Assembly (NCBI GenBank): GCA_016929395.1
Contig: JAFGIX010000017.1
Location: 1 to 54,834 of the forward strand
DNA from: Candidatus Zymogenus saltonus
GTDB taxonomy: Bacteria; Desulfobacterota; Zymogenia; Zymogenales; Zymogenaceae
Direction of reading: 5' to 3'
Length of the DNA stretch: 54,834 nt
The notes under the pieces were generated by a model. It ran no database searches. It was not told the DNA's origin and saw only the letters and a program-made list of their open reading frames with translations. The position numbers and the translations under genes are program-made. Shown one piece after another: positions 35,775 to 42,713 of this stretch (positions are counted from its first letter, which is position 1; every line of letters begins with the position of its first letter).

Positions 35775-36398
35775 CTAAACAGTCTTGCTCTTTCCCTTCT
35801 TTTTATACCAGCCCGTCATGTGGGTCTTTGCCCATGCTTCCGTCACCTTGCCGTCGAGCATGGCGTCGACCGATCCCGTGGTCCCGATGGTTCCCAGGTA
35901 GATATGAGTCATGGCAAAGCCTCCAATAACCATGACACCGAAGGCGTGGAAAACCATCACCCAGCGCAGGAAGGCGGAGCTCAAGTGTCCCGCTCCCAGC
36001 CAGAGGATGAATCCCGTAACGACCATTACGAGGCCGTAGACCGCAACGGTGATGAAGAAGAGTTTCTGACCCGCGTTGTACTTGTAGGGCTCGGGGATCT
36101 TGGCGTCCCAGAGGTACCCGCCGGCGGCCTTGAGCCAGACGATGTCGTCGCTGTTCAGCGAGCCGGCGTCCTTCTTCCAGATGGTTATCGCCCAGATGAG
36201 GGAGACGGTGAAAAACAATCCTAAAATCCCGTGGATGGCGATGACCGCTCTGTATCCGCCGAAGATAGATGCCAGGGGCTCGAAAGACCTGAAGGCCATC
36301 ATCAGCCCCGTCGCAACCAGCAGGAGACATGAAACGGCAAGCACCCAGTGAACGACCCTTTCTGTGGGTGTTGTAACTATTACTTTTTTTCCAGCCAT
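35775..36398 (-). CDS. fdhC: Formate dehydrogenase cytochrome b (gamma) subunit
   Basis: 207 residues with four membrane segments, starting Thr-Pro-Thr-Glu-Arg-Val-Val-His-Trp-Val as in FdnI/FdoI-type di-heme cytochromes b. His residues in segments 1, 2 and 4 (His17, a His near 55 and two near 150-165) are candidate heme ligands. It would pass electrons from the periplasmic FdhAB to the quinone pool. It begins one base after the fdhB stop. Confidence 0.9.
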   Translation of the reverse strand: MAGKKVIVTTPTERVVHWVLAVSCLLLVATGLMMAFRSFEPLASIFGGYRAVIAIHGILGLFFTVSLIWAITIWKKDAGSLNSDDIVWLKAAGGYLWDAKIPEPYKYNAGQKLFFITVAVYGLVMVVTGFILWLGAGHLSSAFLRWVMVFHAFGVMVIGGFAMTHIYLGTIGTTGSVDAMLDGKVTEAWAKTHMTGWYKKKGKSKTV

Positions 36399-36399
36399 G

Positions 36400-37209
36400 C
36401 TAACCCTCCTCTCCTTTGGGCCGCTTCGGGCCTTTGATTACGTAATGGAGCAGAGCCGCGCCGATTACCGCGCCCATTGTGAAGAGTCCGAGGGGCTTGG
36501 CGACGTTCTTCCACAGCTTGACGGAGAGGGGCACGCTCGGCGATTTGACCAGTCTGTCGTAGTGCCCTTCCTTTTCCGTAAGGACGTACATGACATGGGT
36601 TCCCCCGACGTACTTGTCGCCGTAAAGGGATGCGTCTTCGTATCCCATCGCCACAAGCTCCTTCACCCTCTCGTTGCCCTTCTTGATCATCTCCTCTTTG
36701 GTGCCCCAGGAAAGGGTGCCGGTGGGACAGGCCTTTACGCAGGCCGGAACGAGGTTGTTCGTTATCCTGTCCTCGCAGAGGGTACACTTATAGGTCTTCT
36801 CGGATTCCCTGTCGTACCTCGGGATGTTGAAGGGACACGCGATGGTGCAGTATTTACATCCTATGCAGAGGTCCTGGTTGAGCCTCACGGCGCCCATCTC
36901 CCCGTAACTCAGGGCGCCCGTGGGGCAGACCCTTACGCAGGAGGCGTCGGTGCAGTGCATGCAGCCGTCTTTTCTGAAAATCCACTCTAAATCGCCGTTT
37001 TCCTTTACCCCTTCCTGAAAGCGGATAAGGGTCCACGTGTTGTGCTGGAGGTCCTGGGGGTTCTGGTAGCTTCCCACGTTTTTCGTCTGGACCGCGGGCT
37101 GGGAGTTCCAGTTTTTACAGGCCACCTGACAGCTCCTGCACCCCGTGCACTTCGAGAGGTCAATGAGCTTTGCCATCTCGTCTCGCATTATTGATTTTGT
37201 CGCTGCCAT
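36400..37209 (-). CDS. fdhB: Formate dehydrogenase iron-sulfur (beta) subunit
   Basis: 269 residues. Four ferredoxin-type cysteine groups are visible: Cys-Thr-Gly-Cys-Arg-Ser-Cys, Cys-Met-His-Cys-Thr-Asp-Ala-Ser-Cys, Cys-Ile-Gly-Cys-Lys-Tyr-Cys and Cys-Thr-Leu-Cys, each with distal Cys-Pro partners, enough for four [4Fe-4S] clusters. A C-terminal membrane helix (about 238-258) anchors it, as in FdnH. It starts at the base next to the fdhA stop. Confidence 0.93.
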   Translation of the reverse strand: MAATKSIMRDEMAKLIDLSKCTGCRSCQVACKNWNSQPAVQTKNVGSYQNPQDLQHNTWTLIRFQEGVKENGDLEWIFRKDGCMHCTDASCVRVCPTGALSYGEMGAVRLNQDLCIGCKYCTIACPFNIPRYDRESEKTYKCTLCEDRITNNLVPACVKACPTGTLSWGTKEEMIKKGNERVKELVAMGYEDASLYGDKYVGGTHVMYVLTEKEGHYDRLVKSPSVPLSVKLWKNVAKPLGLFTMGAVIGAALLHYVIKGPKRPKGEEG

Positions 37210-40200
37210 TTACGCCCCACCTCCTTTCGCCTTTTCTACGTTGACAAGAAACGCCTTGGTCTCCGGTATCCCCGTGTTCGGATCACCGATTCCCGCCGTT
37301 AACAGGTTTGCCGCATCGCCGAAGGTGAAGACCTCCGGCACCGGCGCATATGAATCGCCGTTCTGACCTTTTTCCGTGGTTCTCCACCCGAAGTGCCAGG
37401 GAATGCCGACCTGATGGAGTTCGTTGCCCTGAACCTTCATCGGCTTGAATCTCTTCGTAACGATCGCCACCGCCGTAAGCTCGCCCCTGGCGGACGATAC
37501 CTTTACAAGGTCTCCGTTTTTGATCCTCTTGAGCTTTGCCAGCTCCTCCGACATCTCCACGAAATTAGAGGGCTGCATCTCCGCGAGCCACGGCTGCCAG
37601 CGCGTCATGACGCCCGTCTGCCAATGCTCCGAAACCCTGTACGTTGTGGCGATTATGGGGTAGTTCGGATCACAGACTTTGGCGTATACATCCTTGTCGG
37701 AGTCGTAGATGTGAACCGTGGGATTCATAAGCTGATCAGGATTTATCAAGTTCTTCTCCACCGGGCACTCCAGCGGCTCGTAGTGGGTCGGGAAAGGACC
37801 CTCCGCCAGGCCGGGGCCGAATATCGATGCAACTCCGTCAGGCTTCATGATGAAGGGGAGCTTTGTTCCCTCCGAATTCATCGGAGGCCATCCGCCGTCC
37901 GGAACGTCCCCCACCCACTTGGTGATAGGGCCGGTCCACCTGATGACCGGTTTTAAGGGCGCCCACGGGTTGCCGTTCAGGTCAACGGATGCGCGGTTGT
38001 AGATGATCCTGCGGTTGACGGGCCAGCACCAGGCCCATTCTGAGTAAAGCCCGATGCCCGATTTGTCGACGCCGTTTCGCCTTGCGGCCATGTTCCCCTT
38101 GACGGTGTACGAGTTGCAGTAGAGCCAATTTCCGCTGGAGGTGGAGCCGTCGTCCTGTAAAAATGCGAAGGACGGGACGAGGTCCCCCTTCTTGAATATG
38201 GTGCCGTCTATTACCTTGTCCTTAAGGAAGTAGCCGTTAATCTCTTTTGCGACTTCGTGGATGTCGACTTCCTTGATCTTGCCGTCGATCCCCTTCTTGC
38301 CGTAATCCCATGTCAGCAGGGTGAAGGCCTCCTTGAGAACGGAGTTGCTTGCCTCCATCTTCTCCTTGATCTTGTAGTAGAGCTCCGTAATGATCTCGCT
38401 GTCGGGAAGCGCTATTCCGGGGGGATTTACCGCCTTGTAGCGCCACTGCATCCAGCGGCCGGAGTTGGTGATGCTTCCCTCCTTCTCAACGGAGCCTGCG
38501 CAGGGAAGCATGAAGACCTCGGTGTTGATTTTAGCGGGGTCCATCCCCGGGCCCTTCCAGAAGGAGCCGGTCTCGTTGTCGAAGATGTTGACGTTGACAA
38601 GCCAGTCCAGCTTGGCAAGCGCGGCACGAACCTTGTTGGAGTCGGCGCCGGAGCAGGCGGGGTTCATACCCCAGGCTAATAGTCCCTTGATATTATCCTT
38701 GTAGATCTGATCCCATATTTCCAGCCACGAGTAGTTGGCGCCGGGATCGAGCTTCGGAAGATAGAGATAGGCCTGTTCCGGGGTGACGTTGAGTCCGTAG
38801 TGGGCCGTCATCAGGCTTGTGATATACTTCGGATAGTTGGTCCACCAGCTTGCGCTAAGCGGGTCATTAGAGGTTACGCTTGCCACCTTTGCCTTCTTGT
38901 AGTCGTCAAGGGTGGGCCAGCCGGTATTCGGCGTTGTCAAATATCCGGGAAGGATGTGAAACAACAGACATTGGTCGGTGGAGCCCTGCACGTTCGACTC
39001 CCCGCGCAGCGCATTCACGCCTCCGCCGGCGATTCCCATGTTGCCCAGGAGGAGCTGGATTATCGCCATGGTCCTGATGTTCTGAACGCCCACGGTATGC
39101 TGGGTCCAGCCCATCGCGTACATGATGGTTCCCGCCTTGTCCTTGACGCCCGTCTCCGAGTAGATCTCGTAGATCTCCTTGAGCTTTTCCACTGGGGTTC
39201 CTGTAATCGAGGATACGGTCTCCATGTCGTAGCGGTCATACTCCTTTTTTAGAAGCTGAAACACGCACATCGGATTGGATAGGGTCTTGTCCCTGACCGG
39301 TACGCCGCGGCCGTCCTTAACGAAGCTCCACGTGGACTTGTCGTACTTGTTTCCGTTGAGTCCTGAAAACACGCCCTTGTTTTCCGCCGGAAGCTTAAAA
39401 TCCGAATTCACGATAAAAGCGGCGTTTGTGTACTCGGAAAGATACTCGACGAAGTGCTTCTTGTTTTCGATGATGTACTTGATCATCCCGCCCAAAAAGG
39501 CGATGTCGGTGCCCGACCTTAACGGCGCATAGTTGTCGGCCTTCGCCGAAGTCCTCGTGAATCTCGGGTCAACGGAAAGGATGGTCGCACCCTTCTCCTT
39601 TGCGCGGGTTACCCACTTGAAGGAGATGGGGTGGTTTTCGGCAGCGTTGCTGCCCATAATTAAGATACAATCACTGTTTCCGATGTCGATCCAGTGATTT
39701 GTCATTGCGCCTCTTCCAAACGACTCTGCCAGAGCCGCTACCGTGGCGCTGTGTCAGATACGAGCCTGATGCTCTATATACACCAGGCCCAATCCCCTAA
39801 GAAATTTTTGGTAAAGGTAACACTCTTCATTGTCCATGGCGGCGCTGCCGATCGAAGCGATCCCGAGGGTGCGGTTCACGGTCTGGCCCGATTCGTTTTT
39901 CTCGGTGAATGTCTTCTCGCGGGTCTTGACCACCCTCTCGGCGATCATGTCGATGGCGTCCTCCCAGGACAGCTCCTTCCACTCCTTTGCCCCGGGCGCG
40001 CGATAAAGGGGCACCTTCAGGCGGGCTTCGTTCACGGCCATCTGGTACAATGCGGAGCCCTTTGAGCAAAGGGAACCTTCATTGATGGGATGATCCGGAT
40101 CGCCCTCGGTGTATACGACCTTACCGTTCCTTACGTGAACGATAATTCCGCAGCCCACCGCGCAATAGGGGCAGATGGTGGTTGTCTCCCGGGCGTACTG

Positions 40201-40311
40201 TATCTTGAGAGGGGTGGCTAATGCTTCAACACCGGAGATGTTGATGCCGAGACCCGTTCCCAAGGCAGTCGCCCCGGAGAGCTTAAGAAAAGTTCTTCTG
40301 GTAACTTCCAT
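37210..40311 (-). CDS. fdhA: Formate dehydrogenase catalytic subunit, selenocysteine-containing, Tat-exported
   Basis: 1033 residues when the in-frame TGA at 39754-39756 is read as selenocysteine 186. The junction reads Glu-His-Gln-Ala-Arg-Ile-Sec-His-Ser-Ala-Thr-Val, the invariant FDH-N/FDH-O active site. The N-terminus is a twin-arginine signal (Thr-Arg-Arg-Thr-Phe-Leu-Lys-Leu). A [4Fe-4S] site (Cys-Pro-Tyr-Cys-Ala-Val-Gly-Cys...Cys-Ser-Lys) follows near residues 45-80, then the bis-MGD domains. The metal may be Mo or W. Ordinary gene calling splits this into two pieces (39754-40311 and 37210-39705). It heads fdhABC-fdhE behind a long structured leader. Confidence 0.95.
39714..39756 (-). 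promoter_or_regulatory. SECIS element and UGA(Sec) codon of fdhA
   Basis: Bacterial SECIS elements lie directly after the UGA. Here the bases after TGA start CACAGCGCCACGG, close to E. coli fdhF (CACGGCCCATCGG), and a G-rich apical region GCGGCTCTGGC falls at the expected 17-20 bases. The loop is a weaker match to GGUCU than the one in the 44.4 kb gene. The call rests mainly on the protein family. Confidence 0.75.
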
Positions 40312-40423: not shown

Positions 40424-40453
40424 AAAAAAAAAGGAAGAAACGTCTCTTCTTCC
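40424..40453 (-). terminator. Intrinsic terminator inside the fdhA leader
   Basis: Stem GGAAGAA (40453-40447 on minus)/TTCTTCC (40439-40433), 7-nt loop, followed by nine T on the minus strand. It ends about 112 bases before the fdhA ATG, so transcripts must read through it. Confidence 0.8.
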
Positions 40454-40614
40454 CATCCGGTGAGCATCAAGGATATAATCCTTGACGCCCCCTGATGATC
40501 AAGAGGACATCTCTTCCTTTGCACAATGGCGGGGTGATCGATTGCTCGGTCACCCTCAAGCGGCCCATTCATCCCCGGGGGACGATTGGACTCGGAAGTG
40601 AATATTTCAAACTA
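40454..40614 (-). ncRNA. Structured fdhA leader, candidate molybdenum/tungsten cofactor riboswitch
   Basis: Between the promoter and the leader terminator the minus-strand RNA folds into several stems. GGGUGA...UCACCC (40555-40536) encloses CGA-GCAA-UCG, a GNRA tetraloop hairpin. UCAAGGAU-UAU-AUCCUUGA (40485-40467) is a perfect 8-bp stem. AAGAG...CUCUU (40515-40501) is a third. A promoter, a compact multistem domain with a GNRA loop, then a terminator, upstream of a Mo/W enzyme, is the layout of Moco/Tuco riboswitches. I could not confirm the conserved core by eye; a protein-bound leader is the alternative. Confidence 0.45.
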
Positions 40615-40621
40615 TTCTAAA

Positions 40622-40650
40622 AATATATACGAGAGGGGTCTCATTGTCAA
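40622..40650 (-). promoter_or_regulatory. fdhA promoter
   Basis: On minus: TTGACA (40650-40645), exactly 17 bases, TATATT (40627-40622). The start near 40615 gives a leader of about 300 bases. Confidence 0.8.
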
Positions 40651-40686: not shown

Positions 40687-40720
40687 GAAAAAAACCCCGG
40701 GATCACCGGGGCCTTTTTTA
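40687..40720 (-). terminator. Terminator after aor
   Basis: Perfect CCCCGG-GATCA-CCGGGG hairpin with eight T next to the stem on the minus strand and six T after CC on plus. Confidence 0.85.
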
Positions 40721-40748: not shown

Positions 40749-42713
40749 CTACAGGCTCAGCTCATCGAGGCCGAGCTCCTTGATCTTGTCCTTGGTCGGT
40801 CCTCCCGTAACGTCGTCCCAGCTCATAACCTCGAACAGCCCCTTTTGGAGCGCGTCCATATCGAGGGTGACGTTCTTGTGGGGGCCCTTTTTCATCGGTG
40901 GATTCCCGAAGCCTCGGCCGTGCATCTTTGTGTCCTTGGCCTTGATTCCCTCCCTGACGTTGAACGCCTTTCTGAGGCTCAATATCCTCTCTCCGATCTT
41001 GAAATACTCGTTCGGGGAGAACTTCCAGCCCGTGGCGGCATTGATGTAATCGATCACAGGGACGGGGCCGGTCAGGGGGCCGAACTCGCAGACTCCGGCG
41101 CCGTTGATTATCTGCATGTAGAACGTTGTGGCAGCATAGAGGTTTACACCCTTCATATCCTTTCCCTTGGCCTCCTTTATCATCCTTTTGGCTTCAGGGA
41201 AGATCTTCTTGACGCCCCAGAGCTGTCCGTAGAGGAAGCTGGAGATGGTGTGGCGGCCCGGTGTGGGCTCGCACTGGTACGCCATGGCGTATCCCTTGTC
41301 GAGGCGCCCGTCGTGCATCGGGAGCTCCTGCCCGCCGGCGTGGACGGCGTACTTGTAGGAATCGCCCCCAATCTCTTCGGAGGCTTTCTTTACGCCGTCG
41401 GCGAGAAGATCTCCGATATTTTTACGCTCTATTATCATCTCGACGAGCTTTTTGATCTCTTCACTCTTCCCCCAGCCGAGCTTCAATCCGCCGGTCATCT
41501 TCTCGTCGATTATTCCGTTCTCGAAGCACTCGATGGCGAAGGCCACCGCCCCGCCCGTCGAGATCGTATCGATCCCGGCGCGGTTGCACATCTCGTTTAT
41601 CTCGACGATCGATTCGAGATCGTCGTTTAGAATCAGGCTCCCGAAGGCGGAGAGGGTCTCGTATTCCGGCTTGTGTCCCTCCGTCCCCTTGAACTTGCCG
41701 AAGTCGATGTCGAATATCCCGCCGCAGCCCAGGGGGCACGCCTGACAGTGATACTTCTTCTTTTCGTACTTGATTACTTCTTCCTCGGAGAGCTTGGAGC
41801 TCTTGGAGTCAAGCGGAAAGTCGGAGTAGCCGACGCCCCCCCAGTTCTTGACGGGGCTGTCCCCCACCTCGGAAGAATAGGCGGTAAGGGCGGAGGTGCC
41901 GTACTTTTTAAACATGAGCCTTACCGTGGAGGGCTGGGTCGGAACATGCAATCCCGTCCTTCCGATGAGCTTTCCGAAGGGCTGAAGGAACTTGACCGAG
42001 ATCTTATCGGGCGGGCCCACCCTCTTGAATTTCTTCATGAATTTTTCCGTGATCTTCTTCATCGCGGCCGGGTCGGCGACAGGAATCTTTCCCGTTCCCT
42101 TTACCGAGAAGGCCTTCAGCTTCTTGGAGCCCATGACCGATCCGAGGCCCGAGCGGGCGGCTATCCTGCCGGAGTCGTTGACGATGCCGGAGATAAGAGA
42201 CACCTTTTCGCCCGCCATCCCGATGGAGGCTATCTGGACCTTTTTGTCGTTTAGATCCTTCTTGATGGCCTCTTCGGTCTCAACCGTGTCCTTTCCCCAG
42301 AGGTGCTTTGCGCTCTTGAACTCCACTCCGTCGTTTGTAAGGTGAACCCATACCGGCTCTTTTGAGCTTCCCGTAAAGAAGACGGCGTCGTAGCCCGCCT
42401 TTTTGATCTCGTGGGAAAAGAAGCCCCCGGAGTTTGCGTCGCCCCAGCCGCCGGTCAAGGGGGATTTCCCCACGACCATGTATCGGCCCGAGAACATCGC
42501 GCCGGTTCCCGTGAGCAACCCGGAGCAAAAGCCGAGATGGGCCTCCGGTGAGAGGGGATCCGTCCCGGGCTTCTGCCTCTGGGTGATCACCGCCGCCCCG
42601 AGTCCGTAGCCCGAGAGATACTTCTTGTAAAAGGCATCTCCCGGCTCGACCGTTTCATATGTCTTCTTGCTCAGGTCGCAAACGAGATACCTTCCTATAT
42701 ATCCACCTGGCAT
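40749..42713 (-). CDS. aor: Tungsten-dependent aldehyde:ferredoxin oxidoreductase
   Basis: 654 residues, a usual AOR length. The [4Fe-4S] ligands are in Cys-Gln-Ala-Cys-Pro-Leu-Gly-Cys near residues 322-329 and Cys-Glu-Phe-Gly near 541. An N-terminal Gly-Ala-Met-Phe-Ser-Gly-Arg-Tyr lies near 70-77, and Glu-Thr-Leu near 350 is in the pterin region. It oxidises aldehydes to acids with ferredoxin, or reduces acids. The ribosome site GGGAGG is strong. The neighbouring formate dehydrogenase shares the need for a tungsto- or molybdopterin cofactor. Confidence 0.94.
   Translation of the reverse strand: MPGGYIGRYLVCDLSKKTYETVEPGDAFYKKYLSGYGLGAAVITQRQKPGTDPLSPEAHLGFCSGLLTGTGAMFSGRYMVVGKSPLTGGWGDANSGGFFSHEIKKAGYDAVFFTGSSKEPVWVHLTNDGVEFKSAKHLWGKDTVETEEAIKKDLNDKKVQIASIGMAGEKVSLISGIVNDSGRIAARSGLGSVMGSKKLKAFSVKGTGKIPVADPAAMKKITEKFMKKFKRVGPPDKISVKFLQPFGKLIGRTGLHVPTQPSTVRLMFKKYGTSALTAYSSEVGDSPVKNWGGVGYSDFPLDSKSSKLSEEEVIKYEKKKYHCQACPLGCGGIFDIDFGKFKGTEGHKPEYETLSAFGSLILNDDLESIVEINEMCNRAGIDTISTGGAVAFAIECFENGIIDEKMTGGLKLGWGKSEEIKKLVEMIIERKNIGDLLADGVKKASEEIGGDSYKYAVHAGGQELPMHDGRLDKGYAMAYQCEPTPGRHTISSFLYGQLWGVKKIFPEAKRMIKEAKGKDMKGVNLYAATTFYMQIINGAGVCEFGPLTGPVPVIDYINAATGWKFSPNEYFKIGERILSLRKAFNVREGIKAKDTKMHGRGFGNPPMKKGPHKNVTLDMDALQKGLFEVMSWDDVTGGPTKDKIKELGLDELSL

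Follow-up and report, generated by a model that had tools for sequence, protein, structure and literature searches.

A leader RNA of a receptor-less Moco/Tuco riboswitch sub-type, probably a transcriptional ON switch, ahead of a formate dehydrogenase operon in Candidatus Zymogenus saltonus

Our results make it very probable that the leader of the fdhA gene of Candidatus Zymogenus saltonus is a P3-less, presumably tungsten cofactor-sensing Moco/Tuco (Wco) RNA of a receptor-less sub-type with a GC-swapped P5, and that it operates as a transcriptional ON switch. The leader lies in contig JAFGIX010000017.1, of which we analysed a stretch of 54,834 nt (the window). On its minus strand (40650-40424), the gene for a selenocysteine-containing formate dehydrogenase-N (FDH-N) is preceded by a promoter, then a structured leader and lastly a terminator with a U9 tract. 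The sub-type is a structural variant within the known Moco/Tuco class, and a literature search restricted to open-access papers found no description of it or of ON-type Moco/Tuco switches.

Results

The initial annotation of this region had described a near-consensus promoter, a long hairpin capped by a GCAA tetraloop, a perfect 8-bp stem and an intrinsic terminator with nine U, and most of this stood. The sigma-70-type promoter (TTGACA-17-TATATT, 40622-40650, minus strand as are all features below) matches the consensus at 11 of 12 positions and ranks first among 6 in 8 kb; a TTGACA-type promoter occupies the equivalent position ahead of the orthologous leaders in the related genomes G001, G002 and G003. 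The aptamer (40511-40600) contains a short P2 (40563-40591, placed by alignment and pair counts), the P4 hairpin (40532-40555), which is the long hairpin with its GCAA at 40542-40545, and P5 with its loop (40521-40530), in which GC (40530-40529) pairs with GC (40522-40521), canonical RNAs having CC/GG. It is closed by P1, a pairing that the first reading had missed: the 5' strand CUUCC (40594-40598) pairs with GGAAG (40513-40517), a switch strand common to P1 and the 5' arm of the terminator. The terminator hairpin (40433-40520) has an outer stem of AAAGGAAGAGAUGUC with GACGUUUCUUCCUUU, the last U's of GACGUUUCUUCCUUU being part of the U-tract (40424-40432), which begins right after the stem end at 40433. 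The supposed 8-bp stem is the terminator's apical hairpin (40488-40464) and has 11 pairs instead of 8.

The U-tract and the fdhA ATG (40311) are 112 nt apart. The fdhA gene (37210-40311; TIGR01553, 1354 bits) encodes the FDH-N alpha subunit and, in the read-through translation, has an in-frame TGA at codon 186 (Sec186, 39756-39754). It probably forms one operon with the genes for an fdhB-like 4Fe-4S subunit (36400-37209, an ORF with its cysteine motifs) and an fdhC-like cytochrome b subunit (35775-36398, an ORF). Upstream of the leader lies an aldehyde:ferredoxin oxidoreductase (AOR) gene (40749-42713; PF01314 and PF02730), for which a scan of the window with our covariance model R2 (see below) showed no such leader of its own. 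Note that a close relative of this AOR gene in G003 (L111) does carry a sub-type RNA. A terminator-like inverted repeat after the aor gene (40695-40711), also followed by a T run on the minus strand, would separate the aor and fdhA transcription units.

The initial annotation had guessed at a Moco/Tuco riboswitch, and the Rfam models supported this guess. In a narrow scan of 121 nt, the window copy aligned over the full RF01055 model with 35.0 bits (E 2.8e-7), missing the gathering score of 36 by 1 bit. No Rfam family rose above its cut-off in the Rfam scan of the window, and a scan of the 1 kb around the leader returned chance matches only, the RF01055 match emerging from the 121-nt stretch. 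Used as a query against the genome of the window, the leader DNA identified two related leaders that precede an AOR gene in tandem on contig 28; these scored 41.4 and 39.2 bits (GA 36) and align with the window leader without gaps but for two single-base ones. The orthologous leader of G002 reached 54.6 bits. The window leader is placed in RF01055 by homology to its closest homologues, which pass, and not by the cut-off.

The window leader has the P1-P2-P4-P5 architecture around the conserved junction, a GNRA tetraloop on P4 and a location ahead of genes for Mo/W enzymes (fdhA, by TIGR01553; AOR in the paralogue). The conserved core that could not be matched by eye is present (UCCGA...GGG...AAAGGAA), which leaves the fall-back of a new class unneeded, since the leader is a structural sub-type of a known one. 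It shares with the Moco/Tuco riboswitch described by Regulski et al. 2008 (RF01055, PMC2408646) the P1, P2, P4 and P5 layout, the UCCGA and AAAGG core, the GNRA-capped P4, the position ahead of Mo/W genes and, with some members, terminators and tandem copies. It differs from it in lacking the 11-nt receptor in P2, in its GCAA rather than GAAA loop, in P5 (GC/GC, not CC/GG), in the use of the P1 3' strand as terminator arm and in its score 1 bit below gathering. The receptor is common, not universal: it is missing in 6 of 176 published members (PMC2408646). The idea that the leader is bound by a protein, or is a plain attenuator without a small-molecule ligand, would fit a structure followed by a terminator and nothing else; the conserved core letters and the homology, over the full length, to an established class of riboswitches make it extremely unlikely.

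Only a few nucleotides separate P2 and P4 in the window leader, which therefore has no P3. P3-less RNAs (58 of 176 in 2008) were tied to Tuco by Regulski et al. (PMC2408646). As in that group, the host has a tungsten metabolism, with AOR genes and a gene for a TupA-like tungstate-uptake protein after copy C9; the only NCBIfam match of this protein is NF041772 (257 bits, under its 400-bit cut-off). The own genome has three further copies, which are canonical, with GAAA loop and 11-nt receptor, unlike the window leader, and precede the genes for the TupA-like protein, an aldehyde dehydrogenase and a [NiFe] hydrogenase; P3 is absent from every one of them. These P3-less copies, one of them ahead of the TupA-like gene, were counted for the W-cofactor reading. 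Four Moco RNAs with GCAA loops had been noted in 2008 as lacking the receptor (PMC2408646), and there, as here, loss of GAAA accompanies loss of the receptor; compared with them, by description only, we find 69 sub-type RNAs in two phyla, a P5 change and an ON-type platform. The Moco-II motif (RF01713) resembles the leader in name and Mo context and is a different motif, with no match listed in the Rfam scans of the window leader and its paralogues.

We defined the sub-type by its P5, which is GC/GC or, rarely, GU/AC where canonical RNAs have CC/GG, and built R2 from five copies, the window copy included. In the window, R2 gave 91.6 bits for that copy, a member of the model, the next best match having 11.7. 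In all three relatives from its genus and family (G001-G003), fdhA is preceded by an orthologous leader that has a promoter and a terminator using the shared strand; in G001 the second P5 pair is changed from C-G to U-A. R2 searches gave more copies in Desulfobacterota, the window's phylum, and a pattern scan of 84,980 species genomes returned 51 stretches, including Sporomusa, Thermincola and Pelotomaculum, so that the sub-type spans Desulfobacterota and Bacillota. Note that the copies were collected with a model and a pattern built from sub-type members, so that their number is not a census and a P1 of GGAAG is favoured by the way of collecting; neither the model nor the pattern included the downstream terminator. 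L145, probably a chance match in a coding region, was left out.

As far as the alignments show, the sub-type RNAs lack the 11-nt receptor, a reading for which we relied on the alignments because a regular expression for the receptor was too permissive for counting. Their P4 loop is mostly GCAA, GUAA, GGAA, GGGA or GUGA and rarely GAAA (the automatic loop call is incomplete), and one family has lost the GNRA loop. A shortened form, mostly without the GNRA loop, precedes a small Fe-S protein (L103, in tandem, L105, L106, L115, L116, L119 and others). Two distal C-G pairs of P2 (columns 25-26 with 63-64 of alignment A5) are steady, in 39/45 and 43/44 sequences, while most neighbouring pairs vary; these pairs may offer the GNRA loop a simple helical docking site in place of the receptor.

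Covariation among relatives, which had been named as a test, was found in a five-sequence alignment and in wider sets. In the five-sequence MAFFT alignment, which was not fitted to the model but whose structure was written from those same sequences, 7 pairs changed on both sides and 0 of 500 shuffles reached the covariation score. The wider alignments were fitted to the model and hence lean towards it: 19 of 28 pairs changed on both sides in A5 (covariation 0.452, compared to 0.164 after shuffling and no more than 0.113 after sliding), and 24 of 28 in A4 (0.463, against 0.143 shuffled). The whole leader folds at -88.7 kcal/mol, compared to -57.3 +/- 4.1 for dinucleotide shuffles (z = -7.6). 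A chance structure between two genes, for which the missed Rfam cut-off speaks and nothing more, is refuted by this z score, by the RF01055 E value of 2.8e-7, which is independent of R2, and by covariation across two phyla.

The genes after the sub-type RNAs were 36 AOR, 13 FDH, 9 Fe-S partner and 5 MoeA; those after canonical RNAs were 10 MoaA, 4 MoeA, 8 Tup/Mod, 4 hydrogenase and 3 aldehyde dehydrogenase (ALDH). These assignments come from tblastn against references partly taken from the same set, with Pfam/NCBIfam checks on eleven proteins. At the Rfam gathering level, 10 of 45 sub-type copies were reported and 35 missed (5/22 and 5/22 counted by hand, plus the unreported window copy); search filters in long stretches may account for some of the misses, as with the window copy.

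Several arrangements accompany these RNAs. The contig 28 leaders (L007:4097-4390) form a tandem of two sub-type riboswitches before the AOR gene, both complete and with a separate terminator for each, and the same arrangement occurs ahead of Sporomusa AOR genes (L130, L163, L164, L168, L157). Also in Sporomusa, divergent pairs of sub-type leaders (L132, L127, L133) face an AOR gene on one side and moeA on the other. The canonical Tuco-type RNAs before the [NiFe] hydrogenase operon and the aldehyde dehydrogenase gene of the own genome (L043:1632-5037 and L042, contigs 54 and 3) have counterparts in G001, G002 and G003 for the hydrogenase, and in G002 and G003 for the aldehyde dehydrogenase. In G003 (contig 26, L045:4550-5001), a canonical and a sub-type RNA lie back to back, serving divergent hydrogenase and fdhA operons.

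Sub-type RNAs use the AAAGGAAG that closes the aptamer a second time, as the terminator's 5' arm. A helix that starts at the P1 3' strand, runs to a U-tract and has 10 bp or more was present in 64/69 sub-type RNAs, compared to 3/31 canonical ones (Fisher 1.7e-16, which is not a true probability because the sequences are related). As for the chance level, 12% of sub-type cases reach 9 bp with shuffled downstream sequence. This direct helix test replaced, after the first result, a looser fold test that called 13/31 canonical RNAs ON via weak folds. When the window leader was folded at growing lengths, P1 was in the minimum free energy (MFE) structure of the nascent RNA up to 40441, except at one intermediate length (40449). 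P1 was lost once the terminator arm was complete, and in this nascent-chain folding retaining it then costs 7.6 to 16 kcal/mol.

Since the P1 3' strand is the 5' arm of the terminator, ligand binding should block termination, as in an ON switch. In the proposed mechanism, RNA polymerase would make the aptamer first. Bound cofactor would hold P1 (CUUCC/GGAAG) and deny GGAAG to the terminator as its 5' arm, and transcription would proceed into the operon of the selenocysteine-containing formate dehydrogenase. Without cofactor, GGAAG would pair with the later CUUCC, the hairpin would close beside the U9 tract and transcription would stop. The ON logic is harder to see for the five sub-type copies located ahead of moeA, which is a synthesis gene.

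The terminator of canonical moaA and moeA leaders is placed further downstream and often includes a segment complementary to the P5 core, such as CCCGUGUUUGG with CCAAACACGGG. Complementarity of at least 8 bp to the P5 core was present in 15/31 canonical RNAs, compared to 26% in shuffles. This suggests that the canonical moaA and moeA leaders are under OFF control. In the aldehyde dehydrogenase leader of the own genome (L093, contig 3), UUUUCCUUUCCAAACA lies ~70 nt downstream of the aptamer; its complementarity to the P5-P1 strand UGUUUGGAAAGGAGAA extends over ~16 nt, with one G-U, and would give a long alternative helix. It is possible that the canonical RNAs exert OFF control of tungsten-independent replacements of FDH and AOR, namely the [NiFe] hydrogenase and the aldehyde dehydrogenase.

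Published expression data from Sporomusa ovata bear on the direction of the switch. R2 found tandem sub-type leaders before AORs of 579 and 484 aa, which agree in length with Aor1 and Aor2 as published, and a single leader before each of the two AORs on contig 5. The remaining PF01314 gene, the third AOR of contig 1, had no sub-type leader by R2 and, by contig and order, should be aor3. In RT-qPCR with ten-fold tungstate, aor1-2 rose 30.4-fold and aor4 14.3-fold, and aor3 was unchanged (Ammam et al. 2016, PMC4973070, in which the word riboswitch is absent). The aor4 gene is one of the two near-identical contig-5 paralogues, which are not told apart here; both carry the leader. The induction of aor1-2 and aor4 and the flat aor3 fit what ON switches would do. 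Other control also exists, since mop2 and fdhA2 rose with tungstate (3.8-fold and 3.3-fold, PMC4973070) with no leader found: contig 1 had no R2 match beyond the aor1/aor2 leaders, and none of the contig-3 matches inspected lay beside an FDH gene. Two of the contig-3 matches (L174, L179) are R2-like RNAs whose core reads GCGAAGG; they precede genes for large regulators of the sigma-54 type (740 and 695 aa), which are unusual targets for the Moco/Tuco riboswitch family.

That ligand binding favours the terminator instead, making the leader an OFF switch, has in its support that the best-studied member, E. coli moaA, is one (PMC2408646). We consider this very unlikely here, because P1 and the terminator exclude each other through the common GGAAG and because the leader-bearing AOR genes of S. 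ovata rise, not fall, with tungstate. The same two lines, the exclusive P1/terminator design and the tungstate induction of AOR genes, support an ON switch with cofactor-responsive termination in Ca. Z. saltonus.

Discussion

Tuco is our inferred ligand, in preference to Moco or to a precursor. The sub-type may instead, within the same riboswitch family, bind another ligand (Moco, metal-free molybdopterin or a W cofactor free of nucleotide) than the canonical RNAs of its genome, a reading that is unlikely and still deserves some weight. The P5 core pair adjoining the conserved AAAGG differs consistently between the sub-types within the same genomes, as this reading would have it. In the general view, the forms of W cofactor in AOR and FDH differ, yet both share the sub-type. 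Against it, the remaining core is conserved, P3 is missing from both sub-types in the window's genome, and the sub-type-bearing genes of S. ovata respond to tungstate supply. Taken further, the receptor-less GC-P5 RNAs could form a separate class with its own ligand, opposing the canonical class in Ca. Zymogenaceae so that tungsten enzymes are turned on and tungsten-independent replacements (NAD-type aldehyde dehydrogenase, [NiFe] hydrogenase) off, which we regard as quite doubtful.

With the leader read as a tungsten cofactor-sensing ON switch of the Moco/Tuco class, our results suggest that a single cofactor-sensing fold exists in two structural sub-types, which are tied to different genes and opposite logic and at times occur together in a genome. 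Annotation at the Rfam cut-off overlooks most of the sub-type copies tested (35/45). The sub-type ON leader is offered as an explanation of why tungstate strongly induces AOR genes in S. ovata, a gas fermenter whose aor leaders are a short, laboratory-tractable handle on tungsten-cofactor sensing by P3-less RNAs, a question dating from 2008.
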